NCBI GenBank assembly: GCA_021234155.1
Contig: JAJEKV010000003.1
Coordinates: 28,689,166 to 28,753,165, forward strand
Length of the DNA: 64,000 bases
DNA from: Isoetes taiwanensis
Taxonomy: Eukaryota; Streptophyta; Lycopodiopsida; Isoetales; Isoetaceae
Reading direction: 5' to 3'
A program made the position numbers and the translations under genes. The first letter of the stretch is position 1, and the number at the start of each line of letters is the position of its first letter. The notes under the pieces are model-generated. The model worked only from the letters and a program-made list of their open reading frames with translations. It searched no databases and was not told where the DNA came from. Shown here one piece after another: positions 9,175-53,972 of this stretch.

Positions 9175-9239
9175 TTGTTATGCTTTATTTTGTTATTATA
9201 TAAAGAGAATCTGAAAAAAAAATGTATAAAAGTTCGTCC

Positions 9240-18156: not shown

Positions 18157-18884
18157 TTGTTGATGTGATTATTCTCCATGGTCTTGGATTTTGGTCTCCA
18201 GACCTGCCTGCCATGATTTGTTTCCACCTCTTTTTGCATCTTTGTCTCCTTATTTTCTTTAGGAGGAGAGAACTTAGCCAGAGGCATCTTAGAGTAGGAA
18301 ATGTTAAGATTAAATATGCCTCTGTTGGGGATTTTGCATGGGATGCAGTCCTCCCAGTTAGAATAGATCTTTTTCTGAATACAAACAGAGGGAAAACTGG
18401 TCTGAGGGATTGAGATCTGAATGATCTCCCCTAAGCTACTAGCAATGGTTCTAAGATGGGAGACAGTCCAGCAACCCATAAGCAAATTTGTGCAGGAGAT
18501 CCAAGTGGTAGTAGCAATTGTAGAGAAATCCCCTGGAATATAGAAAGGATCCCATTTCATAATGTAGACTGGATATCCTGAGATTATAGAGATCTTTCTG
18601 ATGAGAATTTGAGGGACACTCTTCTCTTCTTTACAAATAATTTGAAAAGTCTTATTGTCCAGCTTGAGGATAGAAAGAATAAGAACTAGAAGAGTTTTGG
18701 TAATCCAGTATTTCACAATGCTTAAGGAAGGGCAATTTTGGGGGAAATGGGCAAGAATTCCATGATTGGTATATCTGACCTTGGCCGAGTTATCAGTAAT
18801 GTTACACAGGTCAAGAATGTCCTCATCTTTATTGGTAACTTTTTCTAAATTCCCTGGATTAGTGGCAACATTAACAGAATTCAA
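18081..18884 (-). pseudogene. LINE ORF1 C-terminal portion, truncated and chimeric copy
   Basis: Nearly identical to the copy at 979-1989 down to residues NNHINKA. From about 18,157 the frame continues into the 392-bp repeat (PRRGSLSYTPSNQLPN), so the last 23 or so residues are not LINE protein. The DUF4283-like core (MKWDPF, IASSLGEI) is kept. The truncation is the breakpoint of the large tandem duplication, not a LINE 5' truncation, since the missing part is toward the element's 3' end. Confidence 0.7.
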
Positions 18885-19775
18885 AGAATTGAGTAAAGCG
18901 TTCTGTAGGAGTTACCATTGATTTTGTCATACTTCCCCATAATTGGGACCGAGGACTTCAGAGATTGCTTGGAGACTTTCGTTTTATTTTTGTCCAGATT
19001 TTGCTCCTTGATGCTGGTACAGTTATGGCAGTCACAGTTAGCACAATCCGTCGGGTGAAAGTATCCATTCTTTGTCGACAATTTTGCACTTGGTAGGAGT
19101 GTGAAGCGGGAGTTGGTAGGTTTTGTAATCCATCTCCACCTCTTTCAAAGTTTCGGCGGCAAAGGAAGGGAATCTTCTCTTGAAGCCTTTTCGGAAGCTC
19201 TCTATAACATGATCATCAGCCTCCTCCCAGACTTTCACTAAATGAAAAGAGGCTTTTGATTTCCATCCGAGATCCTCAAGTTCTTCTACTAGAGTCTTTG
19301 CTGCTTGTAACATTTCCGTCATCGATCTTCTGAATATCTGATTTTTTAGGCTGCAGCAGTCTTCTTTCGAGTGCCCTGTCTTCACCCTTATCAGCTGGTA
19401 CAGAAGTATGTCCATTTCCTGGATTTTTTGAAGCATCTGCCAAGCCAAGTCCCGGTCATTGGCTTTGCCTTCTTTGTACTGATTTTCAAGCCTTTGCATT
19501 TCGAGTTTACACACCATAATCTAACCTTCTTTTTGTATTCCCATGCAATCTGATGCGGCTTCTTGTTGTTCTCTAATGATGTCGAAGGCAGCCTTAAGTT
19601 CTTTCATCTTAATCCAAGCTTGATCCTTCTTATCATCCAGAACAAAGATTTGGTCCCAGCTCTGAATGATCAGAATGGGATCTGTGTCCTTATACTCATA
19701 GGGTATTCTTGCAGAGGATGAAGAAGAACCTCGGGTGGCGGTTTGTTTGTCAACTCCTTGGTCCTCATAGTGCAA
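18881..19775 (-). pseudogene. LINE ORF1 N-terminal portion, second copy
   Basis: Matches 1986-2870, including the in-frame TAG (19,521) and the restart at ATG 19,517. It carries an extra frameshift near 19,065-19,080, where copy 1 has ctgtcagc and this copy has tttgtcgac. The frame is thereby split into 19,038-19,517 and 18,881-19,081. The zinc-type cluster CANCDCHNC survives in the second piece. Confidence 0.65.
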
Positions 19776-20115
19776 CAGGGAGAAGAGAAGCGGTCGAGGA
19801 AGGGAATAGAGACAAGAACAGACTAAAAAGAATGAAAAGGAAGGGGAAATGGATCTTTGAGGGGGGAAGAAAGATGGAGGGGAGCGAAAGATCCGAAAAA
19901 GGGAATAAAGGAAAGAAAGAATGATTGGAATGGAACGGAAAGCTGCTAAGATAATGAAGAGGGGCAGCTCATACCCTGAGTCCCCTGCTAGGATCTAATC
20001 AGAGGTGAGTGGTCCCATCAGTCGTCAGAAGGCAGCAGAATCGAAAAAACCAGAAAAACCAGAAAATCAGAGAAAAGAAAAGAAAATAAGATGGGGGAAC
20101 CAAGAGTCGACAGGG

Positions 20116-20535
20116 TTAATTAGCCACCCCAAACCTCCAGACCACAGTACCAAGATCTCCAAAGAATTCTGCTGGCTGAAGATCGAAGAAATCTGCCCAG
20201 TGGTACAGGGATTCGGTACCGAATTCGATGGGGACCTCTAGAAGGAAGAGGTTTCTTTCAAATCTGTTACCCAAAGCAATGTAAGGCTGAGAGTTGTGAG
20301 TTGACACTCTGAAGGAGCCAATTCTGTCAAAACAAAGGATGCAGAGAAAAAACTTGTCAAAAAATTCAAAATCTGCCCTACAGAAACCTATTCTGGATTG
20401 ATTAGAGCTAGCTAATTCGATTAAATCCTCGATGGCTTGAAGAGTATCCTCATGGCCTTGGGGTGGGATGACAAAACCCAGCCCCTGGAGAACAGCTTCG
20501 AGTAAAGCCTCATCCATCAGGGCTGGGTAGTGCAC
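20116..20535 (-). CDS. Upstream ORF of the LINE-containing segment, open copy
   Basis: 139 codons, open from MDEALLEAVLQGLGF to a stop after VVWRFGVAN. No family recognised. The N-terminal third is acidic and helical (HEDTLQAIEDLIELASS). The centre is aromatic, and the C-terminal third (ERNLFLLEVPIEF, HWADFFDLQPAEFF) looks like ordinary protein rather than random sequence. It lies on the same strand as and upstream of LINE ORF1, separated by the polypyrimidine leader. It could be a LINE leader ORF or a captured host exon. Copy 1 (3,220-3,663) carries a stop. Confidence 0.35.
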   Translation of the reverse strand: MHYPALMDEALLEAVLQGLGFVIPPQGHEDTLQAIEDLIELASSNQSRIGFCRADFEFFDKFFLCILCFDRIGSFRVSTHNSQPYIALGNRFERNLFLLEVPIEFGTESLYHWADFFDLQPAEFFGDLGTVVWRFGVAN

Positions 20536-21675
20536 ACTTCCCGAGGCGCGAGTAGGATGCGCTTAGTTTCATCTCCTCTATTCTGTAATCCTGTCATTAG
20601 CAAGATATGTCTTACTGCAGTTCCCTATTGTTCTTCCATTGAAAAATATTATGAAATAAAAAACGAAATACTATTACTTTAAGAAATGGCACATCATCAA
20701 ACAACGAATACTGCTCATTCTTGTTGTAGAATGAACGCTATCTTCTTGCAAAACCAGAAGTGTAAAACCACAGGAATATCGAAATCAACATCCACGATTC
20801 TTTACCATTCTTGCACTAAAAATGTGAAAGTATAAATGCATACCTTTGTTGAAGATTGCAGCACGGAAAGCAGGCAGAATGAAAGAATGTTTTTAGATTC
20901 TTGAACAACATCCATTGTGAGCAGCATGTAAAAGGCAGAGAATCTGCCAAAGTCGCTACTCCATATTGCTGTAAATTGAAACTAATGTGTTTCAGCATCA
21001 GAACCGGTGCCGCCCTTGTCTGATCTGCCACTGTCGCCGCTCCAACAGACGAAGGAAGAAACAAAAACCTAACCTAGTGTAGCAAACCGCCCCAATAATC
21101 CTGCTGCTGCAATCGGTGGCGCCGTGATTCCATACCTATTACCTACCATAAATACATCTTCAGGGTAGACTTCAATCCTGGAGTCTGGAGTCTGGACGTC
21201 TGGCCTGCTAAACCCAGTGGACGGCAGCGATGAAGATCGTGAGAAAGGGAAGAAGAAAGAAACGAAAAACGTAACAGGAGAAAGAAATGAACAAAAACCT
21301 AAACCTAATAAGAAAACGAAACATAATAAACCTAACTTAAAAAAAAACAATTACTATAATACATCAAATATATAAAGCTCAAGAAAAGAAAAAATTTCCG
21401 GCAAATTATATACCCTGCCGGAAATTCGCATGGAAATATTTTTATCCCTGGTAATTTCCCTACATACATATTTTTGTTGCCGCAACTACTTCCTGCAATT
21501 TTTTTTCTTTATCGGAAATATCAATTTTCAACCGGTAGCCTAGGAATTTGGTGCACACTGCCTAAAGGGCATCAAATGTATTGGCCCCAGATTTTCGAAA
21601 AATTAAAAAATAGAAAGGGAATTCAATTTCCATATGATAGCGTTTTTTCCTTTTTAATTTTTAGACAGTTGGTTA
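20536..21675. other. Upstream flank of the LINE, second copy
   Basis: Counterpart of 3,664-4,786, with small indels. No gene called. Low-complexity frames over the purine tract are ignored. Confidence 0.4.
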
Positions 21676-21805
21676 CTTTTTTTTTTTTTTTAGTTTCCCG
21701 AACCTGGATCACCATCCCTTGTCCCTGCAAGTTCAAAGGAGGAAGAGGACTTGAACTAAGGAAAATTGTTCTGCTCAGTACCACAAAACAACATGAAATT
21801 GAAAA
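21676..21805 (-). mobile_element. tRNA-derived SINE-like element, second copy
   Basis: Copy of the element at 4,787-4,920, with the same B box on the minus strand and a T run (about 21,678-21,691) as its poly(A) tail. The flank next to the tail differs from copy 1 (tttttagacagttgg versus tttttaggcaggttgg). Confidence 0.5.
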
Positions 21806-22383
21806 TCCTAAGATTGGAATCACACTAAGGCCAACCCCAATTAAATACATAGCAGAACTAGGTGAGCATTAGGCATAATGAGAGGGCTTTGTGTGCTATT
21901 TGATATCACACTAGGCCCATGGCCAAGTGAAAAAGAAAATGACACATTATTCTGGTTCTTGCTTCATATTCAAAGCATTTTGACTCGCTGAATATTCATT
22001 GCATCGATCAACTCCACAGGTTTCTCCCCCACAGGCTCAAATCATGGAGCTGGGAGGCATTTTTGCACAAACCAAGCACTCCATAACCACCTCGTGATTA
22101 AAATTTTACTTATTTTTATCTTTTTTCCTATAACTCTGACGAAGCTGAAATTTTGTAATCCAAGGCGTAATATAAATGCATTTTAGGTCAAAATATCAAA
22201 AAATTTAATTTTTTTTTTCAAAAATACAAAGAAAATAGCCTCAGAAAGCACCCACTAAACACCATGTCTCGCTAACACAAAAAGTGTCCTACACCTCCAT
22301 GCTTTGACCCCACAGTCCAGATTCGATCAAGGGTGTTTGCAAATCGGCTCAACTAAAGGATTTTGCATGTGAACGATCAATTG

Positions 22384-24005
22384 CAGGGTGTGATCTACAG
22401 CCGATTGACGGGCCCTTGGCCACAGTAAATCTAACAAGCCTTTTTCGGGCACAACACCAGCAACACACCATGCATGGTTATGGCTGATTATTTATCATTG
22501 AGGATCCAAAGCTTCAGCCTTATCCGTATACTTTCATGTCCTGTTATTTACCGCAATCTAACTTAAGCTAGCCATTTGTTTGAATGATCACGTGGTGCTT
22601 GAGAAAATGGAACGTAAGCGTCAAACAAATTGCAATGAGGTATACCCTAATTATGCCACTCAAGAATTGCTACACACACCATGCCACGAGATTAAACTGA
22701 ATTGTATAACATGCAACATGTCTCGCTACACTTCTATATACATATCTTCACACCTTGAGGGGTCAAGATCTTCAAGTTTTCATACTAGTTTGACAAGAAA
22801 TATTTCCCTTGAAGGAGGGAGTCAAGTGATTAATGAAGCAATTCAGAGTTTTGTTGAACTAACTTGATGGATATGGATGTGTATGCAATGAAGATAACTG
22901 GGATTGGGAAAAATACTTGATCTGGAGAAGGTATTCAACGTAGAAATATTGCAACCTTCATTAGTTTAGGCATAACACAATTTGCAGATAAACGTTGCGT
23001 TCAGAGACATATTCACAAGTCCATTATTAAGCAAGCATTGCATTGTTAAACATTGCATAATAGTGACAGAGAGAAAAGTTTGTGGCGGCCTTGGCCACCG
23101 CAATAAATTTCTTGCATATCTTAACACTTTGCAAGAATGACGCCTTCCATTCCATTACAAAAATATATGAACAATGGGCAAATATACACCTAATAAATGT
23201 TTGTAAACCACATTCCTCCTACATAAGGATATATCACCATTGTACTCAACATTGAGAGAACAATTCCAACTCCCATGTACATCCCTATATAAGAATATTT
23301 CATCACTAGTGTTGTACATCAGGGAATAAATTACTAATCGCATATTTCTTATTAGCCATAATGGCTTTAGCTAAACTTGCTCACGATTAATCCCAAAACT
23401 TTCTGTGGTTTACCTAAACTCTACACATTTTCCCTCTCATACTTTCTAGCGTTTAGCTAAACTAACCCAAAATTCATCCCAAAATTTTCTGTGGTGTGGT
23501 CAACGAAAAATATTAAGCTAAAAAGTATTATGTTTTTTTCTTCAATTGTTTCCATTTACTTTAATCATTTTCTTTGTGGAAATAATCTAAAACAATGTCA
23601 ACTAGCTAAATCTAGGCCTCAGAGTATTCCATAGATGCTAGAAAATAACTTAATAGTCTTATATTTCTTATAAACTAGAATGATGCTGGCTAAACTAGCC
23701 CGAAATTCATTCCAAAAGTTTCTAAGGTTTAGCTAAACAATACAAAATTTCAATCTCTTACATTCTAGCATTTGGCTAAAGAGATCGAAGGTTGGTGCTA
23801 GCGCGAAAAAAGTTAAGCTAAAATTATTATTTTTTTGCCAATTTTTTCCATTTACTTTAGCCAATATTTTTTGAAGATGTGCTCAAAAATCGCCAAATAG
23901 CTAAGCTTAGCCCTTAAATTATTCCATGTTGTACATTGTTTGCATAACCACATTCCTCCTACATAAAAATATCCTTTCTAGCAAGAAGATAAAGATACAA
24001 TGATA
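22384..24005. repeat. Block B, copy 3 (B'')
   Basis: The most divergent left half among the four B copies. It has private changes near 22,690-22,720, a shortened agacatattcac at about 23,006, and a roughly 40-bp extra segment at about 23,634-23,680 absent from the other three. The right end resembles copy 1. Confidence 0.8.
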
Positions 24006-24367
24006 AATAATATCTAGATAATTGATGTGAGGCATAGAATGCCTCGAAGAAAGCAATGGAATCCAGAGCAATCCTAGTTTATCCAAGCAATGGAGTCAAG
24101 CAGTCGGAGGAAGATTTGCCATTCCGAGGCCCTTGAATTTTGCAGAAGAATCAAGCAGGCAATTGGCGTGATAAACCAGAAACAATGTTTTGTGCTACGG
24201 TTACTCGCGGCTTGCATCGAACGATATCATGAATCATGGATTAACATATCTCATCCACAATTAGAATCAGATCGGACCGCCAAACTAGGGAAGGAGCTGC
24301 TTACAATTTTAGAAGATGGCTTGCGACTCATCAATCTCTGTGACGAAAAGGACTCCCCTGCCCAAGT
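24006..24367 (+). pseudogene. 5' exon fragment of a protein-kinase gene (block B'')
   Basis: Same 114-codon frame as in copy 1, starting at ATG 24,090. Its last codons lie in the tandem repeat. Shares gcaggcaattgg with copy 1. Confidence 0.6.
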
Positions 24368-25167
24368 AAATGTACATTTGGTCATGGGTTCAAACCTTGC
24401 CAATGTTATTTATATTTTGGAAGTTGGTTACTAGGGGTATACGATGATGATCCCCGACGTAGTAGAACTTAAAAAGCCTATACGTGTCCTCCACTTTGGC
24501 TGTCGCAAGGCAGTGGATAACCTAGCTAGTCTGTACAAGATTAGTCTAGTATGGACCTTAAACAAAGTAATAAAAAAACAATGGGACTATGGTAGGTGGC
24601 ACTAGGATGGTGAGGCTAAAAAGCCATGCCCCTAGAGTGCCCCTAGGACCGAGACTTCCTAAGGCGGGATTAAATCCTGCCTACAAAGTGTGCATGTAAG
24701 GTAAAAGTTTTGCTCAACGGATGTGTGGTGAGTTTGTATAGGCTTAGTAATGCCAAAATAAATGTACATTTGGTCATGGGTTCAAACCTTGCCAATGTCA
24801 TTTATATTTGGAAGTTGGTTACTAGGGGTATACGATGATGATCCCCGACGTGGTAGAACTTAAAAAGCCTATACGTGTCCTCCATTTTGGCTATCGCAAA
24901 GGCGTGGGATAAGCTAGCTAGTCTGTACAAGATTAGTCTAGTATGGACCTTAAACAAAGTAATAAAAAAACAATGGGACTATGGTAGGTGGCACTAGGAT
25001 GGTGAGGCTAAAAAGCCATGCCCCTAGAGTTGCCCCTAGGACCTAGACTTCTTAAGGCGGGATTAAATCCTGCCTACAAAGTATGCATGTAAGGCAAACG
25101 TTTTGCCCAACGGATGTGTGGTGAGTTGGTATAGGTCTAGTAATGCCAAAATAAATGTACATTTGGT
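24364..25167 (+). repeat. 392-bp tandem repeat, two units (B'')
   Basis: Counterpart of 7,437-8,240, with both tRNA-like boxes present. The variant gtttgtataggctt is shared with copy 1 but not with B' or B'''. That supports B and B'' being matching positions of the two large units. Confidence 0.75.
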
Positions 25168-28100
25168 GTTGAATGCCATTGTCTTTCTGAGTTTCAGTGA
25201 GAATATACTCCGGCAGCTATAGCATTGGCATATACAAAGATGTTTTAAGTTTCTTGCAATTCTAGCGGCCTTACATTCTATTATCTTACTATTATTTGTT
25301 GTTTGCCTTATCTTGCAGCCCACCTCTTCAAGTTTGCTAATTACAGCAGTAAGATGATGTGGAACAACTCCAGACTTTGATATAGTTGAGCGGGTGACTG
25401 CAACTGCGATTGAGAAGGTGTCAGCTTCTATACGATTTGGAATTCTTGTAAAATCACAACCATGTGTCTATCTGTGTTGCTTATACGCCGCTTTCCAATT
25501 TTCCTCTTTCTTTTCTAGAGCATATACTATTTAGGGGAGGTGTTGATATTGTTGAAGAACTTAGCCGTCTTATCACGAATTCTCTCTATCATATTATAGA
25601 GCCTTAACAAGGTAATGTAAGTTTTAGCTTAAATTTTGGTTCTCTTATGGTTCTTGTATTATTTAAACTTGTTAGAGCTCATATATATTAATTGTGTTCG
25701 GAAAAAGATTCTTTATTAAGTTTATCCTATTGATTGTGTTTCATGCATAGGAAATAACATAGGAATAACATTGATTGTGTTTCATGCATAGGAAGCAAGG
25801 CATGTCATTTGGCCAGTAGAGGAGCGACATCGAAATGTAATTTTTTCTAGATTATGAAATTAGTAACGAACTTATAATTTAATTTTATGTCATTTTTCTT
25901 GTGTAGGCCATTGAGCAATTGCTTCTTCTGGATGATATGGAAGTACAAGCTGATAATGAAGATCTACCTAATAACGTTGAACAAGATGATATTTATGCAC
26001 ATCAAAATTATATTGATGAGCATGATGGTAGTGGTGTAGCAGGCAGCTATGCCTGCTGAAACAATATTGTATTTCTTTTGAATTAATAAAAAAATTTTCT
26101 TTTTGTTATGCTTTATTTTGTTATTATATAAAGAGAATCTGAAAAAAAAAATGTATAAAAGTTCGTCCAAATTTTTTTTTGTAACGGTTCATGAACTTGC
26201 AATGCGTTTCAAGGTTTTTTTTATTTATTTAATATTGTTTTTTGAAATGCGTTTCAATATTGAAACGAGTTTCAGTTCTTATTCAGTTGAAACGCATTGC
26301 AAGCTTGTTATGCGTTACAAATCCGTTATGCGTTTCAAACTTGTTATGCATTACAAATCCGTTATGCGTTTCAATTGACCCCATCATTCGTAATGTGTAT
26401 CAAATCAACACTAGTTATAGTGCCTGGCATTGCCGGGCGTAACTACAATTTTATTGTAGAATTATGTGAGTAAGATATAGGATTTAGGAACGAATGTAGG
26501 GTTGTCAATCATGGTCCTTTTAAGTTATTGTCCAAGTTGGATGTCACATTTAGAACTATTGAAAGGTCAAAGAGTTGCAACTATTGAAATTCAGCCACTC
26601 TATTTTCTTCGTAGCATTTGAATCCATGCAATATAGTTAAGGATCCAACAGTTTCCTTCATTGTAAAATGACAATTGCATCTATAACATACCAAAAGTGG
26701 CGTGTATATTGTTTACAACAGTTGTAGTGAACCCATTTAGATTATTCCAAGAGCACTCTAAAATATTACAATGTTGTAAATATTGTTCCTACTTGTATAT
26801 GACTCATAAACCCTTTGCAACAACAAAATAGAATGACCCTATTGAACGTGATTTGTTACATCTATTAGCAAATGGCAGTTAGAACTATACGTTTGACTAA
26901 AAACTAAGCTTCTTGTTGCTGGGCCTAAGTAGAATTCTATTGTAGGCAAGCACGAAGAAGCATAGGTAGAATGTGTTGCTAAATTGAATTAGGGACAAAA
27001 GAAAAATAGGAGAATTGAAGAAGACAATTATTATAGATATAGGTATCATGTGAGAATTAAAACTTCCCTCTTGGAAAGAAGTTTACTATTAGTTGAGGAT
27101 TTTAATCTATGCAGTTGTGGTTTAACCTATACAGTTGTAGTGATAACTGCAAGGGATCCATCATTCGAGGTAGCAATTTCCGCCTATGTACAATAAATCA
27201 AAGATAATAACTCGAAATGATGTTTGTACCTCTTTAACATTATAAATGCACATTCTTTCATTAGAAAGAAATGCTAAATGTATCTATAGGAGTTTATGCA
27301 GACTTTTGCCTAATGTTACACTTGCATATTCTTTCATTCCCTGCACAATTCCACCTCCATTAAGAAACCATCAAGCCTACTTATATTCCTCACTTTCTGA
27401 AACATTCATGTGTTGGAATTGCTATTGTGTGCAACACCCTAGAAACTATGAACATTAATGATTAGATTCATGGATATTGTTTGTCAATAAATAATTCCTT
27501 ACAATCATTGCACTCCATAGATAGATGTTGGTACTCATACTATAGGCTCAGTATAAACACATAAAATAATTTCTTCAATCCAAAGAGCATAGTATGTAAG
27601 CGACCAACTTCTGATCCTTAAAACAAAAAAGTTCATATGTATCGTATTGGCCTTCATTGGAGCAGCTATAGGAACCTTGTATTGGCATCTAATGCTATGA
27701 CAACTCTAAAATAGGATCACATTATAAGTTAGCACAATGGACTTCAATTAGAGTTTAGGGTTGTAAAAGAACAGTCTTACCTGATTACAATATTTTTTGC
27801 ACGATCCATTTGATGGCTTCTTTGGAATTCGCAATAAGTCAAGAAAATCTTATGCTCACACCATGCCGCAGAATCCGTTGGGCCATTCGCAAAGAAACCA
27901 AGCCACGGTTTATATCAAATTTGGAATATGCTGGGCAATAGAAATGCGAAGTGATAGAAAATGCCATAGATAAAGCAGAAATCAAAGCAGATGTGTGAGA
28001 AATTAAAGTGTGCTTATGTAAAGCGTGCTACAACATTACAAATATGATGGGCTATGGTGCTAGATTCCTCCAAATCCATCCACAAATCTTGAATAATCTT

Positions 28101-29461
28101 GTTGTTATGATGTTAAAAACATATGAAGACACACATCAAGAATAAGTCTATCATCACGTGCTATCTCTGTCTCTCAAAGCAAATATATGGGATAATGAAA
28201 TGCAACAGTATGCTCTATCTACATGTCCTTTAAAGCAAGAACATCATCATGGAAAGACCATATGACAGATAAAAGAGCGATTATATCGCTATTGCTCAAA
28301 GTTACACATATTTTTCATATTCAAGCCACAATTTGCATATATATTTGGTTTGAACATAGTACAATCTCCAGGAAAACAATAGACATGATTCTAAAATAGA
28401 CAAAAACATCAAGATACCAGAGCTTAGCTTGGAACGGTAAAAGCACTATTATTAGTGGCATATTTTAGAATAGGCTTGTGTCTCTACAATATTTCTACCA
28501 GAAACTACATGCGATGTTAATATTACCTGTGTAAAAGCTAGTAAGAAAAACCCTTCTGCTAGCTCTAGCAGAATGTTACTGCAAAAAATGAAGCAGGTCA
28601 GGACGGATCTATTAAACTCCGTTTCGCACATCTTCTCCAACTAAATAAGGTACCTATATGCTGTAAAAACCGGTCTCCAGAAAAAATAGCAGACATGATT
28701 CTAAGATAGACAAAAACGTCAAGGCACCAGGATAACTGGTGCAATTGTGAACTCCACCTTCAAGATGAAGAAACTCTAAACCATATGAATTTTAATCGTG
28801 CAGATGATTGCGTAAAACTTAATGCATGCTTTGGGTTGGAGATATCCTACAATGAATAAAAGATATAGGAATTTGGAACACTTTGCAATCTACAACAATA
28901 TCTAAGCAATAACAACTCATAAAGACCTGTGAAATGTACTTTTAATAGAATTATAGAGAATCTAATAATAGAATTATAAAGAATCTAATACTTCTCAATT
29001 TAAGGTGGACAGTGTTTTTGTCATTAATGCTTGAAATGGGAGATGTAAGGGTCTTAGTTACAGAACTACTTCTCAAGTTATGACACAACTCTCGTTAAAA
29101 ATTTGTTATTTTTAAAGAACCTAATACTTCTCAAATTAAAATGGAGAGTGCTTTCTGTTGCTATTAATGCCTAAAATGGCAGATGTAACACAACTACTTT
29201 TCAAGTTATGATCTCTTGTTAAAGCTGTTACTTATTATAACAATCTCAATAACACCTAGTTATACACTCACATAAGAGGGTCATAACGAACTAATTTTAA
29301 GCTAGTTTCCAACTTTGTCACAGCTATATCCTGCAAAGAGCTATCATATATCATGTAAATTGGTCACACCTGACCAACTACCTTTGCCACAACCTTTCAT
29401 AAAATGAAGTTAACTTGAGTATAATTAGAGAACTTGACTCAAATATAATTAGAGAACTTCA
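25168..29461. other. Block C, second copy
   Basis: Nearly identical to 8,241-12,533, including the exon-like end near 25,910-26,058 and the GCGTTTCA palindrome cluster (26,166-26,390). Differences concentrate in a few spots. At 25,185-25,215, tttctgagtttcagtgagaa stands against tttacagtttccagcagaa in copy 1. Others are at 28,835-28,880 and 29,095-29,115. All involve CAG/CTG words. No confirmed gene. Confidence 0.45.
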
Positions 29462-29567
29462 CTCACCTAACTTTTGTTATAGCGGTTGCCTAACAATGCT
29501 TCTGCAGCTTGCAACCCATCGATAAATTGTGCAACTATGACGGGCTCAGATCCCTCAAGCACAATAT
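29462..29567 (-). pseudogene. Exon-like segment, part left of the insertion
   Basis: Same as most of 12,534-12,669, interrupted after acaatat at 29,567. The remaining part of the exon is at 32,047-32,070. Confidence 0.3.
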
Positions 29568-32046
29568 GTAGCATAATAACAGGGGGTTTCTTTTGTATTT
29601 TTGTACGTTTTTTTCTATGGTTTTCATATGATTTGATGGGCGTATTGCATGAGACCTATTATTTAGTATATCTAGAGTGCGCACTGTATTCTCATATTTA
29701 AATGACATATTATCTATGATTTTGCAATGGTTTAGCATTTGCATATTTTTCCTTGAAAAATCAATTATTTTTAAGTTCCCAAAACAGACATGCAAGCATC
29801 GAGGTCCCTTATTTTAGGGTTCTTTAGGAAAGGGTTTGCTTTACGGTTGCCACCCCATTTGCTTAGGAGAAGAAAATTCTCTGTTCTTGCTCTCACGGAG
29901 GAGGGATTTTGGAGCAATGTTGCCCGCCATGGCCAAATCTTTGAAATCTGGAATTTGCTTAAGTACAAAGCATGCGTTACTAAACCCTAACAGGATGCAG
30001 ATTAGGGATGCGGTTTAGGGTGCGACTTGGCATGGCCAGAACTAGATTCCATCCGGTAGGATATGGCACTGCGTTTGGAGCATTTTTTTGCCTTGGAGCT
30101 CTGATTTGAAGTCAAATTTTACCGGCATGGCACCTCTTCTCTTCGATCACGGTATTCTTGAAGCACAAGTTTGTTCAAAACGAAGTGAGAATCTTTGGCA
30201 TCTTATGCCAAGCAGCAGGATTCTCTAAGGAGATTCAGGTATATCATCTGGTTTTTTAAGATTGCAAATCCTTGTTTCTTACATTCACTTCTTGGAATGA
30301 CCTGTGTCAATTAAGAAAGCGAAGCAAACAAAAGAGCTTGTTGTTTCGGTAAGAACGCACAAGATCTTGATGTGGCTTTGGAATTAAGCAAAGAACAAAT
30401 GCCTTGACTTCAAAAATAATTTTCTTGGTTTCTACTATAGCATCTGCCACAACCTTTACGCGTGCGGACTTGTATCCATGTAGAAATGAGAGAAAATTCG
30501 TGTTAACTCATACTTGTTTGCAATTGAGAGCTCAGCTCTTTTCTCATGTACAAATTCTTAGTGGTCAAGCGGATCGCTTTTACTTGTTGTTAAGCAAGTG
30601 CTCTCTTGGTGGAACCATTATATATTCTCATGCGGGGAAAGTTGAAGGCGAATATATAGCTTCTAATAGATGGTTTCTCCTAAGCTAATACATTTGGTAT
30701 CATTGAATGTGATTCTTGCAGGAATGGCTGAGAAGTGTATCATGGAATGTGATTCTTGGAGGATATACCGAACGGGGATTTCTCCTCAAATTGGCATTTA
30801 GGAATTGCCCAACCATGATTTGATTTTGAAATGCCACGGTTTATACATATGGCGGGCATGGGGAGCTTAAAAATCATTAATCTTTTCTCGGTAGATGCAC
30901 GAAAGGGATGGGTTGGATGGACCTGAAAGGGATGGGTTGAAAGAGCGCCATGGTTGCGGTTACGTATCTATGTGCGGCAGGCGTTACTTTAAACGCATAA
31001 CAAGATCAAGCTGATAGTAAGCCAGCGAGAAATGTCTATCGATCATCCAGAGCCACTTGTTAAATTTGCACAGAGCTTTGATGCAAAGTCATGTCCAGCG
31101 GTAATTTCAACTTCAAACTCATTTTAGCAATTGACCATGTTGACTAGTTTGTTATGCATTTGTACTTAGTAGTTTAGTATGCTCAAAAAATTAATGCTGA
31201 AGCCATGTATTCACTGGCATGATCCAAACATAATCGAGGACGGACATAATCGAGGACGGCATGAGTGTTACTTTCACACAGCATGAACAATTAATGTATG
31301 AGTCTGTGGAGCCAAAAGCATGATACCAAGGAGACATGTGTCCCAGAAAATGGAGCAGAAAAATATTCAAAACAACGTTTTTGGGAAACTGTTTGGTAAA
31401 TCATATTCTAACTTAAGACTGTCAAGGAAATGAGAGTATTCCGCGTGTGTGGACCACTATGCAACATTAGAAGCTTTAGAAGCTCGTTCAATTGGAAAGT
31501 ATGTATTAATCTTGATTAAGCATAGCAAGCTCCACGTGCACCAAACAAACCATGGCAGCACTGACTTAGAAAATTATCATCGATATTGTTGTTGCCAGAT
31601 TTCGACGTGTTCAATTCCAAGAACATGTTCTTGTCCTAATGATTACACAAAATATACTCATAGTTGTTTGCAATGGAAATAATTTATTTGTCTTATTGTG
31701 CTTTTTTGGGCCCGAAGGGCCCAAAAAAATTTTTAATATAACAACCAAGACACAACTACCATTAATATTATTAACACAGACCATTGCATCCAACGCATTT
31801 AAATTAAAATCCCCCTGAAACCCCCTTTGGTTTAGGTGCATATTCACACGGGGGGTTACGTAGGGCAGCGAGAGCCCCTAAAAATTTACAATACATGTAC
31901 AAAATTAATACCATTAAGTACATTCTCTCAAACCTTATAGTATTTTGCAAATCTCAACATACAGTATACAAAAACTTGTACAGGCATACCCCACAAACGA
32001 GGATTGCTATGTACGGTCCAGATCAAGGAATAAAGGTCCGTAGGGC
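29568..32046. mobile_element. 2.48-kb insertion of unknown type in unit 2
   Basis: Absent from unit 1, where acaatat is followed by 10 bases (atccagcttt) and then tatgagtctg. Here 2,479 bases replace those 10. I see no terminal inverted repeats, no target duplication and no transposase or reverse-transcriptase frame. The insert holds a perfect 12-bp hairpin (31,702-31,728), two copies of acataatcgaggacgg in tandem (31,228-31,259), and a duplicated gaaagggatgggttg near 30,903-30,945. It could be a non-autonomous element, a filler segment, or a gap-join in assembly. Confidence 0.5.
31702..31728. other. Perfect 12-bp inverted repeat with 3-base loop
   Basis: ttttttgggccc, loop gaa, gggcccaaaaaa. 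A stable hairpin on either strand, inside the 2.48-kb insertion. Confidence 0.85.
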
Positions 32047-35000
32047 TATGAGTCTGAAGGCAAGAGAAGTCCTGCAACATGTCATTGAAATGTATTCAGG
32101 TATGCAATAATGAGGTTTTGAATCTTAAAGACTAACAAACAATACCATGTTGTGGTGCCATGTCATGTAAACGTTTCATACATTAACTATGCTGCTATAT
32201 CTATCAGGAAATGAAGCATTAACAGTTGGCAATTGCCACATCTAAGACTTGTCAGAGTACTAAAAGAGAGCTTGTAAATGCTGGCTATGTTTGGCTTGTT
32301 GTCCCTGCCATGAGTTTTATTTTAACTCACCCTTCCTTCTGTTTGAATAGGAGCAGGCTACTCATGAGAAATGGCATTTTCAGCAGTAATATCTCAAACC
32401 ATTGTTGACAATGTACAACACAATGCAAGTCCACAACATATTCAACTTGATGCTGGCATGCAGCATAGATACGCTTTATTTTCTACCGTGCTCTCCTCTG
32501 TGTGACTCCAACGCATTATCTTTATTTTTCTTTACTTCCCTGCTACAAATATCTTTTATCATACAACATAAACCATTGGATGTTTCAGTTTGATCCATGA
32601 TCAGGGATGGGATGGCTTAGTTGTAGCAATGGTGCTAAATGTTTTATGTATTGACCAGCTATTAGTTAAGTTTGAGCTTTATATTCATTATCCTGCTAAC
32701 ATAAGGCTAAAGCATGTAACTAAGCATTTTTATAAGCACTCAGAATTTCATATTGAAAAATTCATATTGAAGCACGTTTTAGGAGGTGGTCTAGTAATGT
32801 CACCGCATGGTAAAAAACCAAATGCCTATCCACAAAGTCTCGTAACCGTATATTGCTTCTTCCTGCATGAACAGCGCAACAAAACCCATTTGTATCTAAC
32901 ACATTAGAAGAAGTTTAGATTAACTTAAACTTTGCTAAAAACACATGATATTTACTAAGAGTCGGTCATGGTTCAGAGAGAGAAATGGTGTGCAAATGAT
33001 ATACAAAATGTGGGCCTTATTAGTCATCTAAGAGGTGTAACCTACCCAGTAATCTCGTTGCCCAGTAATACCAGCTTGCAAAGGGATTATGGAGCTACTT
33101 ATAGGGCATAGTATTTTGCCAGCTAGAGACGTGTATTTGAATCAAAATTTCAACATAAAATCCTAAGACAGGGGCAAATTGTCCCTGATGTTTATCAGTG
33201 CATTCTTACATTCATAAAGTTAGTTCTACTAAGATTTCCGTTGAAATCCTTAACAGGTTTGTTTGTATATAGCTGTTTGTAGCTTCATAGTTTAGATTTT
33301 GTCAAAGTTTCATAGATTATTTTGATCTTATCTCCTATTATTTTGTATATGTAAATGCCTGTAATAGACCCGTATGGTTGCACATCATCCTTTGTTGAAG
33401 CAGGAAAGCCAAATCATGAGCATATTTGTTCTATTTGAATCAAGTTTCTATGGCTGTCTCATTCTATTTTAACCATTTGACATTCACGAGGCATTCAGTA
33501 AATCGCCATATACCTTACGGCTTTTTAATCCTAATTGGATGTTTGAGCAAGATGTTGGACCTATTTGTATATGCAGATGCCTATTTTGGATCCTTATGGT
33601 TGTTGCAACAGGTTGTATTCGAGCAAGATACTATTTTGGATCCTTATGGTTATTGCAACATGTAGTATTCAAGCAGGATAATCAAATCAGAAGGCACAGG
33701 TATACTTTCATTTGCAGATCTTCAGTATTGATAGCATGATAATACATAGACTAAGAGTTTTATTTCGTAGCATCTAAGCGTACTCATATTACTTAGAAAT
33801 GGTGCATGCCTGAACTCATTTCGGACTTGGTGTTCTTCATGGATCAGCATAATAACCTTGCGTACATGCCAAGGTCTTCCTTCCTTAAGTCCTAACTCGT
33901 TTATGCAGGCGTATCATGTATGCTCTAACGCTTTTGAGAAAGACATTTAAAGGAAAGGGTTAATAGCACCAGTTAGATGTATAGCAAACCAAAACTTTCA
34001 TGAATCATCTTCTGTCATGCATGTAGATGCCACTACTTGGCTGGAATACTATGAAACCCTGCATGATCGGAGCAACAATGGCAGACTTGCCGAGGATAAG
34101 ACATCCATTTGCACGATTCATAAGATACTGAGCTCTTGAGCAATCGTGGCATGCATGCCACGCTGCAGCCCGAAAGGAAAAAAGCGACTGAACGCCGCGC
34201 CCGGTATTCGCATGGCATGACGCGAAGAACAAAATGCCCAATTCATGTGAAAAGAAAATATTTCGATTTTTGGATTGTCGGAAATAGTTTATGGCATCCA
34301 AAACCATTTAAAATCTTAGAAAATGGGCTTAAAAAAAATTCCAAAAACATTTTCTACCAAACCTGAAAATCCCAAATTAACAAGATTGATTGTAACGCCA
34401 TTTTTTAATTATATTATATTATTTTTTTAGTTCAAAAAAGCGTATCAAAAAGCGTTACAAGCATAGGGGTTTTCTTCTAGTGTGAGTTGCCTGCCATGTG
34501 CCTAGAAGTGTGATCATCATCATTGCATGTACCATAGCTCAGCGTATGCAGGCTCGACGGAGGGGCTCAAACTCAACAAGGAATTATAGCGATCAATTCA
34601 TATAGCTCATGGAATGAATATGTTTTCTTTATTAAGCCAACCTTAGCTATAAAAAGTGAATGTTTATAATTAAAGGCTGATAAGGGTGATCAGCCGTTAT
34701 AGCAAGTCACAGATTTCATGATTTCGGGACAGATGGAAGTTTTGAAAATCATTTCGCATTGCTGGAGAAGGTATAACTTGTTCTAAGATGGTGAATCTGC
34801 CTGATAGCCTTTTTCTAGAAGATGTTATTACACAAAAAGGTTTTCTACATAAAGAGTCTTCTGTAGAAAAAGGCATCTTCATCAATGTGTATATAAGGGT
34901 AGCGATTCCTTGATACTGATTCATTCTAACCAATTCTTGTGCATTCCTAAATCCTTAAGCCTTTGTCATAGCTTGAAGCACAAATTTAATCTAATATTGA

Positions 35001-35115
35001 AAGATTTTGAGCCCCTTTAGGTCGACGAGCGATCTTAAAGACTGGATCTACTTTTGTTGTTTACTTTGATTGTTTTAGTATTTGTGATTAGTTGAAAACT
35101 TATGTCAGCTTTCAC
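32047..35115. other. Block D, second copy, with inverted segment 33,238-33,817
   Basis: Begins with the last 24 bases of the interrupted exon, then follows 12,670-15,721. The 580 bases at 33,238-33,817 are the reverse complement of 13,836-14,415. Around 34,180-34,215 the sequence differs strongly from 14,790-14,822 in a CAG/CTG-rich spot. No gene called. Confidence 0.5.
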
Positions 35116-36700
35116 CAGGGTGTGATCTACAGCCGATTGACGGGCTCTTGGCCACAGTAAATCTAACAAGCCTTTTTCGGGCACAACACCACCAACACAC
35201 CATGCATGGTTATGGCTGATTATTTGTCCTTGAGGATCCAAAGCTTCAGCCTTATCCGTATATACTTTCATGTCTGTTATTTACCATAATCTAACTTAAG
35301 CTAGCCATTTGTTTGAATGATCACATGGTGCTTGAGAAAATGGAGCGTAAAGCGTCAAACAAATTGCAATGAGGTATACCCTAATTATGCCACTCAAGAA
35401 TGCTACACACACCATGCCACGAGATTAATCTGAATTGTATAACATGCAACATATCTCGCTACACTTCTATATGCATATCTTCACACCTTGAGGGCTCAAG
35501 ATCTTCAAGTTTTCATACTAGTTTGACAAGAAATATTTCCCTTGAAGGAGGGAGTCAAGTGATTAATGAAGCAATTGAGTTTTGTTGAACTTACTTGATG
35601 GATATGGATGTGTATGCAATGGAGATAAGCGGGATTGGGAAAAATACTTGATCACGGAGAAGGTATTCAGCGTAGAAATATTGCAACCTTCATTAATTTA
35701 GGCATAACACAATTTGCAGATAAACGTTGCGTTCAGAGACGTATTCCATATCACAAGTCCATTATTAAGCAAGCATTGCATTGTTAAACATTGGATAATA
35801 GTGACAGAGAGAAAAGTTTGTGGCGGCCTTGGCCCCCAATAAATTTCTTGCATATCTTAACACTTTGCAAGAATGCGCCTTCCATTCCATTACAAAAATA
35901 TATGAACAATGGGCAAATATACACCTAATAAATGTTTGTGTAACCACATTCCTCCTACATAAGGATATATCACCATTGTACTCAACATTGAGAGAACAAT
36001 TCCAACTCCCATGTACATCCCTATATAAGAATATTTCATCACTAGTGTTGTACATCGGGGAATAAATTACTAATCGCATATTTCTTATTAGCCATAATGG
36101 CTTTAGCTAAACTTGCTCACGATTAATCCCAAAACTTTTACGTGGTTTAGCTAAACTCTACACATGCAACCCTCTCATACTTTCTAGCGTTTAGCTAAAC
36201 TAACCCAAAATTCATCCCAAAATTTTTACGTGGTGTGGTCAGCGAAAAATATTAAGCTAAAAAGTATTATTATGTTTTTTCTTCAATTGTTTCCATTTAC
36301 TTTAGTCATTTTCTTTGTGGAAATAATCTAAAACAATGTGAACTAGCTAAATCTAGGCCTCGAGTATTCTATAGAATCTTTGGCTAAACTAGCCGAAATT
36401 CATTCCAAAAGTTTCTAAGGTTTAACTAAACAATACAAAATTTCAATCTCTTACATTCTAGCATTTGGCTAAAGAGATCGAAGGTTGGTGCTAAGCCTGA
36501 AAAAAGTTAAGCTAAAATTATTATTTTTTGCCAATTTTTTCCATTTACTTTAGCCAATATTTTTTTTTGAAAATGTGCTAAAAATCGCCAAATAGCTAAG
36601 CTTAGCCCTTAAATTATTCCATGTTGTACCTTTGTTTGCATAACCACATTCCTCCTACATAAAAATATCCTTTCTAGCAAAAGATAAAGATACAATGATA
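35116..36700. repeat. Block B, copy 4 (B'''), with many CAG/CTG-linked differences
   Basis: Collinear with 15,722-17,304 but carrying many small changes. About two-thirds sit on CAG or CTG words of the other copies (for example ctgtgg becomes acgtgg at 36,138 and 36,224; ctcagagta becomes ctcgagta at 36,359). See findings. Confidence 0.8.
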
Positions 36701-37064
36701 AATAATATCTAGATAATTGATGTGAGGCATAGAATGCCTCTCGAAGAAAGCAATGGAATCGAGCAATCCTAGTTTATCCAAGCAATGGAGTCAAGAAGTG
36801 GGAGGAAGATTTGCCATTTAGAGGCCCTTGAATTTTGCGAGAAGAATCAAAGCGGGCTATTGGCGTGATAAACCGGAAACAATGTTTTGTGCTACGGTTT
36901 TTCGCGGCTTGCATCGAGCGATATCATGAATCATGGATTAACATATCTCATCCACAATTAGAATCGGATCGGACCGCCAAACTAGGGAAGGGCTGCTTAC
37001 AATTTTAGAAGATGGCTTTGCGACTCATCAATCTACGTGACGAAAAGGACTCCCCCCTTGAAGT
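36701..37064 (+). pseudogene. 5' exon fragment of a protein-kinase gene (B'''), frame broken
   Basis: Same exon as at 7,079-7,440, but the 114-codon frame is destroyed by indels at CAG/CTG sites (36,755; 36,834; 36,847; 37,033; 37,050). If those are sequencing errors the fragment would be as intact as the other three. Confidence 0.55.
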
Positions 37065-39290
37065 AAATGTACATTTGGTCATGGGTTCAAACCTTGCCAA
37101 TGTTATTTATATTTTGGAAGTTGGTTACTAGGGGTATACGATGATGATCCCCGACGTAGTAGAACTTAAAAAGCCTATACGTGTCCTCCACTTTGGCTGT
37201 CGCAAGGCAGTGGATAACCTAGCTAGTCTAAACAAGATTAGTCTAGTATGGACCTTAAACAAAGTAATAAAAAAACAATGGGACTATGGTAGGTGGCACT
37301 AGGATGGTGAGGCTAAAAAGCCATGCCCCTAGAGTGCCCCTAGGACCGAGACTTCCTAAGGCGGGATTAAATCCTGCCTACAAAGTGTGCATGTAAGGCA
37401 AAAGTTTTGCTCAACGGATGTGTGGTGAGTTGGTATAGGCCTAGTAATGCCAAAATAAATGTACATTTGATCATGGGTTCAAACCTTGCCAATGTCATTT
37501 ATATTTGGAAGTTGGTTACTAGGGGTATACGATAATGATCCCCGACGTGGTGGAACTTAAAAAGCCTATACGTGTCCTCCATTTTGACTACTGCAAGGCA
37601 GTGGGATAAGCTAGCTAGTCTGTACAAGATTAGTCTAGTATGGACCTTAAACAAAGTAATAAAAAAACAATGGGACTATGGTAGGTGGCACTAGGATGGT
37701 GAGGCTAAAAAGCCATGACCCTAGAGTTGCCCCTATAGGACCTAGACTTCTTAAGGCGGGATTAAATCCTGCCTACAAAGTATGCATGTAAGGCAAACGT
37801 TTTGCCCAACGGATGTGTGGTGAGTTGGTATAGGTCTAGTAATGCCAAAATAAATGTACATTTGGTCATGGGTTCAAACCTTACCATTGCCATTTATATT
37901 TGGAAGTTGGTTACTAGGGGTATACGATGATGATCCCCGACGTAGTAGAACCTAAAAAGCCTATACGTGTCCTCCACTTTGGCTGCCGCAAGGCAGTGGA
38001 TAAGCTAGTTCAAGATTAGTCTAGTATGGATCTTAAACAAAGTAATAAAAAAACAATGGGACTATGGTAGGTGGCACTAGGATAGTGAGGCTAAAAAGCC
38101 ATGCCCCTAGAGTTGCCCCTAGGACCTAGACTTCCTAAGGCGGGATTAAATCCTGCCTACAAAGTGTGCATGTAAGGTAAACGTTTTGCCCGACGGATGT
38201 GTGGTGAGTTGGTATAGGCCTAGTAATGCCAAAATAAATGTATATTTGGTCAGGAGTTCAATCCTTGCCAATGTCATTTATATTTGGAAGTTGGTTACTA
38301 GGGGTATACGATGATGATCCCCGACATGATAGAACTTAAAAAGCCTATATGTCTCCTCCACTTTGGCTGCCGAAAGGCAGTGGGATAAGCTAGCTAGTCT
38401 ATACAAGATTAGTCTAGTATGGACCTTAAACAAAGTAATAAAAAAACAATGGGACTATGGTAGGTGGCACTAGGATGGTGAGGCAAAAAAGCCATGCCCC
38501 TAGAGTTGCCCCTAGGACCTAGACTTCCTAAGGCGGGATTAAATCCTGCCTACAAAGTGTGCATGTAAGGCAAAAATTCTGCCCAACGGATGTGTGGTGA
38601 GTTGGTATAGGCCTAGCAATGCCAAAATAAATGTATATTTGGTCATGGGTTCAAACCTTGCCAATGGCATTTATATTGGTATACGATGATGATCCCCGAC
38701 GTGGTAGAACTTAAAAAGCCTATACGTGTCCTCCACTTTGGCTGCCTGGCCAAGGAAGTGGGATAAGCTAGCTAGATACGTACAAGATTAGTCTAGTATA
38801 GACCTTAAACAAAGTAATAAAAACAATGGGACTATGGTAGGTGGCACTAGGATGGTGAGGCAAAAAAGCCATGCCCCTAGAGTTGTCCATAGGACTTAGA
38901 CTTCCTAAGGCGGGATTAAATCTTGCCTACAAAGTAGTAAGGCAAAAGTTTTGCCCAACGGATGTGTGGTGAGTTGGTATAGGTCTAGTAATGCCAAAAT
39001 AAATGTAATTTGGTCATGGTTTCAAATCTTGCCAATGGCATTTATATTTGGAAGTTGGTTATTAAGGATATCACGATGATCCCCGAGGCGTAAGCCTATC
39101 ATTATCCTCCACTTTGTTTGGGATAAGCTAGCTAGTGCATACAATATAAGTCTAGTATGGACCTTAAACAATGGGACTATGGTAGGTGGCACTAGGATGG
39201 TGAGGCTAAAAGCCATGCCCTAGAGTTGCCCCTAGGACCTAGACTTCCCTAAAGGCGGGGATTAAATCCACGCCTACAAAGTATGCATGT
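37061..39290 (+). repeat. 392-bp tandem repeat array, about 5.7 units
   Basis: Unit starts (aaatgta) at 37,065, 37,457, 37,852, 38,236, 38,629 and 39,001, giving periods 392, 395, 384, 393 and 372, then a degraded partial unit to about 39,290. A-box-like tggtgagttggtatagg is at 37,423-37,439 and B-box ggttcaaacc at 37,476-37,485 in the first unit junction. Most units keep both. The last units are the most diverged, as expected at the edge of an array. Possibly a tandemly amplified SINE; transcription is untested. Confidence 0.85.
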
Positions 39291-52077: not shown

Positions 52078-52480
52078 CTAACTGAAATGATCGTGTAGTG
52101 CTTTGACTATAGAACGCGGATGATCAGGAGGAAAATCATATTGAGGAGAATAGATCACAATGCCCCCCAAGTCATTTTCCTTCACATACTTTGCCTTTTC
52201 AATTACTGACCGAACACTATCACATGAGTAAACCACTTTCGCGATAGGATCGTGGATATATGCTGCTTTAGCTTCATCATCCCATCTCTCCTGAGATGTA
52301 TACAATTTATTATAACCAATATCAAACTTAAATTCACGTGCGGGCTTGCCCATTCCATCTGTGCCGCTGAATTTCGCGCTACATAGTGTTGCCCCGATTA
52401 TAATCTTGGAAGAAGGAATTTCATGAGACACTTTATTGGCTCCCGAAATTGAGTCAACATGCCAAAGCGGGTTGAAGAGG
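52078..52480 (-). pseudogene. C-terminal exon of a GH18 chitinase-like protein
   Basis: The minus-strand frame reads SSKIIIGATLCSAKF, then ERWDDEAKAAYIHDP, then the C-terminal core SVIEKAKYVKENDLGG and IVIYSPQYDFPP, ending in HDHFS before a stop. This is the last part of a glycosyl hydrolase 18 barrel: the conserved D-x-x-S-I-x-x-K-A-x-Y-V-K-x-x-x-L-G-G segment, though the first Asp context reads CDSVRSVIEKA. The catalytic DxxDxDxE motif would be upstream and is absent. The frame runs on into GC-rich sequence, so the first 20 or so residues (MPRPRSSPRA...) are not part of the protein. Either the rest of the gene is missing or an intron lies upstream. Chitinases of this family act on chitin-type substrates in defence. 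Confidence 0.65.
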
Positions 52481-52489
52481 TGAACCCGA

Positions 52490-53830
52490 AGCCCTTGGCG
52501 AACCGGATGCGCCCGAGGCGAGCTTCGGGGGCGTGGCATGGCCGGTTCGTGGCTGTCGCTGCGTGGCGTCTTGCCGGGTTGGCTTAGGTGAACCCAAATT
52601 GATTAAGTGTCGGTGGCGGGGAGTCAGCGTGTGGGACGGCTGACCCTCTTGGGTTAAGCTTGAAGAGGCGAATTACGCCAGTGAGGGGCGGAAAGGGGTA
52701 GAGCTTTTAATGCTCTTAATGTTTACGGTTTTCAAGCCACATGCGTGAACTACATCGATTTTAATCGTCAATCCATGAAGATTATCTCTGCGGCCAATTT
52801 TTCCTCTTGATTTTCAAAAATTTGGGTATGGTGAGATTTGTCGGAGTTTGAATAGGTGATTTTTCGGGTGTGTTCGGCGATTTAGAGGCTGGGTATTATA
52901 GGTAATGTTGCAGCGACGAAAAGCTGGGGAGAATTCTCGGATTTGAGGTTTGATCGTCTGTATCGTCTGTTTCTAGAACAATCATTCATTTGTTTTTCTG
53001 TTGGTGGGCGGCAAGGAAAGAGTCAGAAGAAATCTAGCATGGGATGGTGGGTTATGAAAAAGCCGGTGCATGATTATTGAAAAAAACCCAAGAGAGAATG
53101 ATTTAGGGCCGTAAGGAATCTTTGTGGCGAAAGCAGGCGAATGAGATGATCGAGGGGTAGAAAGCGGCTCGAAAATCGGCGTTTAGAACCCAAAACCAAA
53201 TTTTTAGTAGGAAGAGAAAGATTTGGAGAAATGGGTATGAATTTAATTTCGAATCAGGGGCAAGTTTCTCCGACACCACCGATTCAAAAAGGATGCAAGG
53301 GGAAGCGCCCGGCTAAGCGGAAGCTTCTGAGCAGAAATCCGGACCGCGGCCGAGCGGGAGGGAGGAGGATAAGTCGATGGCGATCTTTGCGGGGGCGGCT
53401 TGCGGTAGCTCTTCCATCCGCGACGCGGCGCGGTGGGCGGGCATTCATAGACTTGTTGCCGGTGTTGCGGTACAAATCCGTCGTGGTGGGTTCGCAGGCG
53501 AACGGCGGGGTTAATAAATAATGCCCCCTCACGAAATTCGTATCGTAGTGTAGCCCCGCCCGGTGGGTTCGGCTTAGGCGAACCGGCGAGAATAAAGCAC
53601 TTTGCCATGTGCGACATCGCCGCGGTGGCTAACCCGGTTCGGGTTGCCCAAAGCGAACCCGGTGGAAATAGTGCCATGAGCTATGCGTCAAGATGGCGGG
53701 TTCGCTGGCGAATCCGCAGTTCGCTTAGGTGAATTCGAGGAGGTTAAGCTTGGGCGGAACCGGTACGCTCTGGACTTAATTTCCGGGGAGCCCGTCAGGC
53801 TACCCGGCCCGATTCATGTATGCTATATTT
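52490..53830. other. GC-rich, CpG-rich island with repeated gcgaacc words
   Basis: Sharply more GC-rich than its flanks, with many CG dinucleotides (for example gaccgcggccgagcgggag at 53,342). Words of the form (t)aggcgaacc or ggtgaaccc recur near 52,480, 52,500, 52,590, 53,500, 53,577, 53,655 and 53,707. Frames on both strands (53,231-53,521 plus; 53,243-53,677 minus) overlap each other and are composition artefacts. It could be a promoter region or a recent insertion of different origin. Confidence 0.5.
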
Positions 53831-53893
53831 TGAATAAGCACTATGATACAAGTTGCCATCATGGGGCGTGGAGTCTTTCTCGGGAAGGATCAT

Positions 53894-53972
53894 TTTGATA
53901 TGGATATGGTCTACCAAATGCATTGTGCAAATGATATGGATATGGTCTAGCAAATGATATGGATATGGTCTC
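53894..53972 (+). repeat. Short tandem repeat, atgatatggatatggtct
   Basis: Three imperfect units of gatatggatatggtct separated by (a/c)caaatg-type spacers. Confidence 0.7.

Follow-up and report, generated by a model that had tools for sequence, protein, structure and literature searches.

Clustered differences at CAG, CTG and CG words in duplicated DNA of Isoetes taiwanensis: probable nanopore miscalls in an unpolished consensus

Described systems and the locus under study

Systematic nanopore errors at modified bases have been described in bacteria. In the passages of the sources compared here, ~70% of the consensus errors made in K. pneumoniae by the then-current ONT basecallers with default models were located in the methylated Dcm motifs CCAGG/CCTGG (PMC6591954), and modification-mediated nanopore errors in Listeria persisted after polishing (PMC10687267). 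For plants, ~96.4% of the potential errors in a nanopore assembly of maize A188 polished with Pilon were assigned to transposons or other repeats, and methylation levels of 85.2% (CG), 71.9% (CHG) and 1.5% (CHH) were given for A188 seedlings (PMC8188678); pea was reported to be strongly methylated at CG and CHG and little methylated at CHH (PMC10027222). Methylation differences have been suggested to lower accuracy under general models, in an article whose main text contains neither CHG nor CAG nor CTG (PMC9749173), and the use of nanopore sequencing in plants has been reviewed (PMC7501810). No description of strand-oriented error patches in a plant assembly was found in the passages of the nanopore-error and plant-methylation literature that were compared.

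The window analysed here is a stretch of 64,000 nucleotides, positions 28,689,166-28,753,165 of contig C1034 in the assembly of I. taiwanensis (1.66 Gb in 1110 contigs), and 100 kb of flanking DNA on either side were included in the analysis. Positions are given in window numbering throughout. The feature under study, B''' (35116-37069, plus strand), is one of four copies of an element within the window, all on the plus strand, the others being B (5496-7440), B' (15722-17666) and B'' (22384-24367); a fifth copy, B5 (locus L005), lies ~14.6 kb past the right end of the window. Plant repeats usually carry methylation at CG and CHG cytosines. The explanation favoured here, to which we give a probability of about 0.92, is that B''' belongs to a nanopore consensus that was left unpolished and drew mainly on reads of a single strand, in which methylated CHG and CG cytosines were miscalled. 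Errors of this kind are already known, and the signal in B''' is almost certainly an artefact and no real feature.

As in the Dcm (CCWGG) errors of Enterobacteriaceae, the affected words would hold a 5mC-methylated CWG core on which the basecalling model had not been trained, and homopolymer errors come next in rank (PMC6591954). Unlike in the Dcm case, CAG/CTG words are affected here in any flank and together with CG, as would be expected for a plant, and the errors are patchy and strand-oriented in a final assembly. The Listeria case shares with this locus the systematic errors at a lineage-specific modified motif that survive standard polishing, but it concerns a bacterial genome and mainly mismatches, whereas the errors here lie in patches of a plant assembly and include many indels (PMC10687267). 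Maize A188 is likewise a plant assembly in which the residual potential errors fall nearly all in transposons or repeats; an analysis of errors by context and strand is reported here, and none is contained in the A188 passages compared (PMC8188678).

Concentration of changes on CAG, CTG and CG words

All five B copies were aligned and the events in each were scored against the majority sequence formed by B, B' and B''. Of the 46 events found for B''', 17 are on CAG or CTG words. The expectation was 2.56, and 17 was not attained in any of 1000 random placements. CG-containing words were enriched as well, with 8 events on ACG (1.7 expected) and 5 on CCG (1.3 expected). Against the same majority B5 had 37 events, 12 of them on CAG/CTG (2.3 expected), and ACG and CCG words were also enriched in this copy. 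B, B' and B'', which themselves form the majority against which they were scored, had 2, 5 and 25 events with 0, 1 and 1 on CAG/CTG and thus no clear excess; B'' in addition carries a 47-bp insertion. B and B' are clean, and B' was used as reference.

A reading made from the sequence alone, hereafter the sequence-only reading, had listed 15 changes between B''' and B' and had ascribed them to basecalling errors at methylated CHG sites. Fourteen of these were recovered within ~15 bases of the given positions; the change at 36,629 had been misread, since CACTGT of B' actually aligns to CCTTTGT. Tabulated by trinucleotide, as it had proposed, the differences of the B copies show the enrichment described above, which is present in B''' and not in B, B' or B''. 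That CAG/CTG words make up most of the differences was slightly overstated for the words themselves (17/46) and holds for their vicinity, as 31 of the 43 events between B''' and B' lie at most 3 bases from CAG, CTG or CG (43/90 in the control duplication). A sequencing error is supported, while the limitation to CHG is not: because CG sites err too, the pattern would be better described as an effect of 5mC contexts than of CHG alone, methylation being the part of the claim that we infer.

As control served a duplication with copies at 1259-12634 and 18154-29567 (both plus strand), which differ by 90 events in 11.4 kb (7.8 events per kb; 18% with indels). CAG/CTG words accounted for 13 of the 90 events where 3.5 were expected, the expectation being taken from one copy and the count from both; this excess in the control counts against the favoured explanation. 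Reading frames with DUF4283 are located near the start of each control copy, at 979-2013 and 18084-18911 (both minus strand).

With the cleaner copy of each pair as reference, only 16 of 258 CAG/CTG words (6%) were altered in the control duplication, in comparison to 53-78% in four damaged stretches, namely 146/187 at 68.5-78.5 kb, 161/227 at 52.7-62.4 kb, 17/28 in B''' and 39/73 at 133.5-136.1 kb. In the 68.5-78.5 kb and 52.7-62.4 kb stretches the CG words ranked next, with 51-59% of CCG and ACG altered, followed by CAC with 18-23% (35/196 and 49/209, respectively), CAA with 9-11% (60/528 and 41/470) and ATG with 6% (34/528 and 26/410). Pure homopolymer indels were also more frequent. Damaged sequence contained 38 of them over 10.0 kb, 29 and 20 over two stretches of 9.7 kb each, and 4 over 1.9 kb, whereas the control duplication had 5 over 11.4 kb and two shorter controls (1.3 and 1.2 kb) had none. 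This corresponds to 2.1-3.8 per kb against 0.44 per kb in the control, an increase of ~5 to 9 times.

The raised homopolymer errors would also be expected from generic unpolished nanopore error in which methylation has no role and CAG/CTG and CG words are just difficult for the basecaller, and methylation is a step beyond what can be taken from the letters themselves. However, the altered words coincide with the CHG and CG contexts methylated in plants, while CAA, ATG and CAC are less altered, and in printed precedents, from the passages compared, errors of this type were associated with motifs that are methylated or otherwise modified (PMC6591954, PMC10687267); error of this generic kind is considered very unlikely.

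The comparison of B''' with B5 bears on a further explanation, according to which both are older, truly diverged paralogues or alleles. The two copies share 8 identical differences from the majority, which indicates some common history and is most easily read as a real joint one. The remaining events do not fit: when indels and events near CAG, CTG or CG are set aside, B''' differs from B' by 1 substitution in 1.9 kb, compared with 3.3 per kb in the control duplication. Furthermore, of the 38 private B''' events, 13 were at most 2 alignment columns away from a private B5 event (4.3 expected, at most 10 in 2000 shuffles), and at these sites the same position is often altered with a different outcome in B5. 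True divergence of B''' and B5 is given next to no probability.

Extent and strand orientation of the damage

The sequence-only reading had confined the effect to 35,116-37,064, which is too short, as the damage reaches ~62 kb. The flank directly to the left of B''' (33818-35115, plus strand) is clean, with 9 events in 1.3 kb when compared to 14425-15721. The first private error of B''' is found near 35,259, and the error burst sets in at this point, near 35.26 kb. Next to this flank, a 581-bp segment (13836-14416 and 33237-33817, 99.8% identical) is inverted between the otherwise co-linear duplicates. Counting CAG and CTG per kb along the window, another check that the sequence-only reading had suggested, revealed a depletion from ~35 kb to ~62 kb: the observed/expected ratio fell from 0.85 at 34 kb to 0.48 at 35 kb and 0.16 at 36 kb, stayed mostly at 0.28-0.60 thereafter with 0.73-0.97 in the bins at 48, 50 and 52 kb, and rose at the right end from 0.38 (61 kb) to 0.60 (62 kb) and 1.02 (63 kb).

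The region is part of a 43-kb tandem duplication. Unit 1 (25,082-68,464, plus strand, of which 25082-64000 lie in the window) aligns to unit 2 (68,470-112,016, outside the window), with an alignment identity of only 91-94%. Binned comparison of the units showed that the damage alternates between them, the left copy being affected from 35.2 to ~62 kb and the right copy from 68.5 to ~87 kb, perhaps up to 91 kb according to the CAG/CTG observed/expected ratio. The depletion measure, for which no second copy is needed, agrees with the unit comparison on the extent of the damage. The left patch (35200-62000) is CAG/CTG-depleted, and a heavily damaged part of it (52676-62412) has a cleaner partner at 96.1-105.9 kb outside the window. 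From these data the damage appears to cover ~27 kb of the window, interrupted by clean islands at ~44.8-47.6 and 49.9-52.3 kb. With 3 and 1 homopolymer indels, respectively, and few CWG errors, the islands did not discriminate between methylation and polishing, since both kinds of error are low in them. Inside the left patch B''' is followed by a tandem array of 393-bp units (37064-39086, plus strand, 5.2 copies); shorter runs follow the other B copies.

Among 17 pairs compared over 264 kb, the top event rates (15-36 per kb) involved the 43-kb duplication or the region at 125-139 kb. Five pairs to the left had 6-12 events per kb, two of them with an excess on CAG/CTG (12 versus 1.9 and 15 versus 2.8 expected). 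Ratios of observed to expected CAG/CTG of 0.26-0.45 were also recorded in 4-kb bins outside the window (-72 to -68, -24 to -20, 120-124, 128-132 and 136-140 kb), which are possibly further damaged stretches or CWG-poor repeats.

The outcomes of the changes were mirror images of each other in the two patches. At 52.7-62.4 kb, CAG>CGG was observed 27 times, ACG>GCG 23 times, CTG>TTG 15 times and CTG>ACG 9 times, and the reverse complements 2, 0, 1 and 0 times. At 68.5-78.5 kb the changes were CTG>CCG (24), CGT>CGC (18), CAG>CAA (13) and CAG>CGT (14), with 2, 0, 0 and 0 of the opposite set. Orientation was summarized as the ratio of CAG>CGG plus ACG>GCG to CTG>CCG plus CGT>CGC. The three sections of the left patch that could be polarised (35.1-37.1, 39.6-42.2 and 52.7-62.4 kb) all showed the plus type, with ratios of 8:0 in B''', 6:0 at 39.6-42.2 kb and 50:2 at 52.7-62.4 kb. 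The minus type was found to the right, with 2:42 at 68.5-78.5 kb, 0:12 at 83.0-85.6 kb, 2:12 at 133.5-136.1 kb and 0:6 at 136.1-138.7 kb; B5 had only 0:2, and the control duplication gave 2:0 in one direction and 1:2 in the other. The section at 39.6-42.2 kb was polarised against a single clean-looking copy on contig C1049. Polarisation with three outside copies was discarded, as only 3 CAG and 4 CTG sites were left and two of the three copies were damaged.

With a likelihood score trained on the left patch, the 31 changed sites of B''' gave +37.0, the 296 of the right patch -309.8 and the 33 of the control duplication +24.2. Because the control is not near zero, the score by itself is weak for segments as short as B'''; the strand argument is built on the outcome counts, and the score has a supporting role only.

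The orientation is of importance for the possibility that methylated CHG and CG cytosines really mutated faster in some copies. The contexts are those expected from such mutation, and locus-specific methylation could accelerate it in some copies only. However, deamination should produce TAG and CTA as frequently as TTG and CAA. In B''' and at 52.7-62.4 kb, TAG plus CTA made up none of the changed CAG/CTG words (0 of 17 and 0 of 161), and at 68.5-78.5 and 133.5-136.1 kb a single one each (1 of 146 and 1 of 39), compared with 2 of 16 in the control duplication. The statement of the sequence-only reading that the changes are not deamination products was thus borne out. In addition, many changes are indels or A>G/T>C changes beside the cytosine, homopolymer indels climb together with the CWG changes, and the outcomes are mirror images between patches. 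Symmetric CHG methylation would give no reason for mutation to differ by strand between neighbouring patches, whereas reads from one strand would do so. Real mutation is regarded as extremely unlikely.

A strand-dependent outcome of miscalls is expected from the way in which pores read DNA, and the direction of the errors appears to reveal which strand was read. In terms of the favoured explanation, miscalls in nanopore data, B''' would be the left edge of ~27 kb of largely unpolished nanopore consensus. A basecaller untrained on plant 5mC would miscall the words surrounding methylated cytosines in fixed, strand-dependent ways, and for the strand read in the left patch it would turn CAG into CGG, ACG into GCG and CTG into TTG or ACG, among others. 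Because the neighbouring patch shows the reverse-complement set of errors, each patch was probably built mainly from the reads of one strand, perhaps from one or a few molecules. If accurate reads went into polishing, they probably aligned to the cleaner ones among the near-identical copies, and the patches would have stayed uncorrected. The sequence-only reading had put this down to a failure of short-read polishing in duplicated DNA, which is too simple, as it does not explain why the near-identical B, B' and B'' are clean.

Near-identity of the two units, other loci and consequences

The two units were further compared by plain substitutions, that is, single-base substitutions away from CAG, CTG and CG. 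Between 31.1 and 52.1 kb, consecutive 3-kb segments contained 0, 0, 5, 1, 0, 0 and 0 of them, the segment with 5 being the one that contains the 393-bp array; between 52.7 and 60.2 kb, segments of 2.5 kb contained 1, 0 and 3. For comparison, 3.3 such substitutions per kb separate the copies of the control duplication, and 21 were counted between the two units within the single kb that starts at 62.4 kb. Outside this count, 15 multi-base changes, 19 non-homopolymer indels away from CAG/CTG/CG and the error-type events were found between 31.1 and 52.1 kb. Over ~29 kb, both units thus look nearly identical when differences of the error type are disregarded, with opposite types of error.

A strand-phased false duplication, in which plus- and minus-strand reads of one locus were assembled as two tandem copies, is unlikely but deserves some weight. 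Methylation errors differing between the strands would make one locus appear as two sequences, and at ~31-60 kb unit 1 is of the plus type, unit 2 is of the minus type and few differences beyond the error type exist. Since the units show real-looking differences in the flanks at 25-31 and 62-68 kb, at most a part of the 43-kb repeat would be false. The near-identity is explained equally well by a recent duplication or by gene conversion.

Copies of other repeats were compared across contigs. Six loci on five contigs were compared for a repeat of ~2 kb (window 30001-32036), a subset of the at least ~30 long copies seen among the 40 of 4947 candidates that were scored. CWG changes were found at 37 of 40 words in the right patch, 14 of 32 in the window, 8 of 29 on C1101, 7 of 30 on C1018, 4 of 25 on C908 and 0 of 23 on C1041, the window copy with its 14/32 relative to the other copies being the one regarded as the clean reference, which is a point against the favoured explanation. 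Opposite-strand matches near 31.70-31.88 and 31.89-32.04 kb suggest inverted arms in this repeat. For the element at 39.6-42.2 kb, the copies on C1042 and C963 differed from the C1049 copy at 39/65 and 32/65 CAG/CTG words, real divergence included; the C1042 copy was strand-biased (1:8). The C963 copy showed no bias (3:3) in spite of its 32 altered words and likewise speaks against the favoured explanation. As CWG change is uneven among copies of one repeat, the effect is, judged from these alignments, a property of the locus and not of the repeat family, and it does not look confined to contig C1034. A repeat of ~0.6 kb with 20 copies on other contigs was discarded for this comparison, its majority sequence containing only 5 CAG/CTG words, too few to classify loci.

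The errors break genes. Two frames, 364 and 354 aa long, are open at L012:3202-5291 (minus strand) of the clean right copy, the partner of window ~53.8-55.9 kb; they match a protein kinase (8.8e-40) and glycosyl hydrolase 18 (GH18; 1.9e-12), respectively. Opposite these intact kinase and chitinase-family frames, no frame of at least 110 aa was found at ~53.8-55.9 kb in the damaged copy. No Pfam match was obtained for three adjoining frames (53.15-53.68 kb); a GH18 end lies at 52,081-52,602 (minus strand). The errors also mimic divergence between young duplicates and would mislead the dating of duplications and transposons, so that the stretch is unfit for evolutionary or functional claims until it has been checked with accurate reads. 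From the assembled sequence by itself, such stretches can be flagged through their depletion in CAG/CTG, although naturally CWG-poor sequence scores low too.

Copies of rbcL were considered as a plastid-insertion control and rejected, as most differences of the best extra copy fall on a single codon position and this copy is no ordinary decayed insertion. Two long rbcL frames of 512 and 490 aa, L029 (C1052:5415903-5416829) and L030 (C840), are 89% identical over 1453 bases without indels, and 118 of their 153 differences fall on one codon position. Transfer of a plastid gene, a plastid gene of foreign origin or a misjoin may account for the copy on C1052, a contig of 11 Mb.
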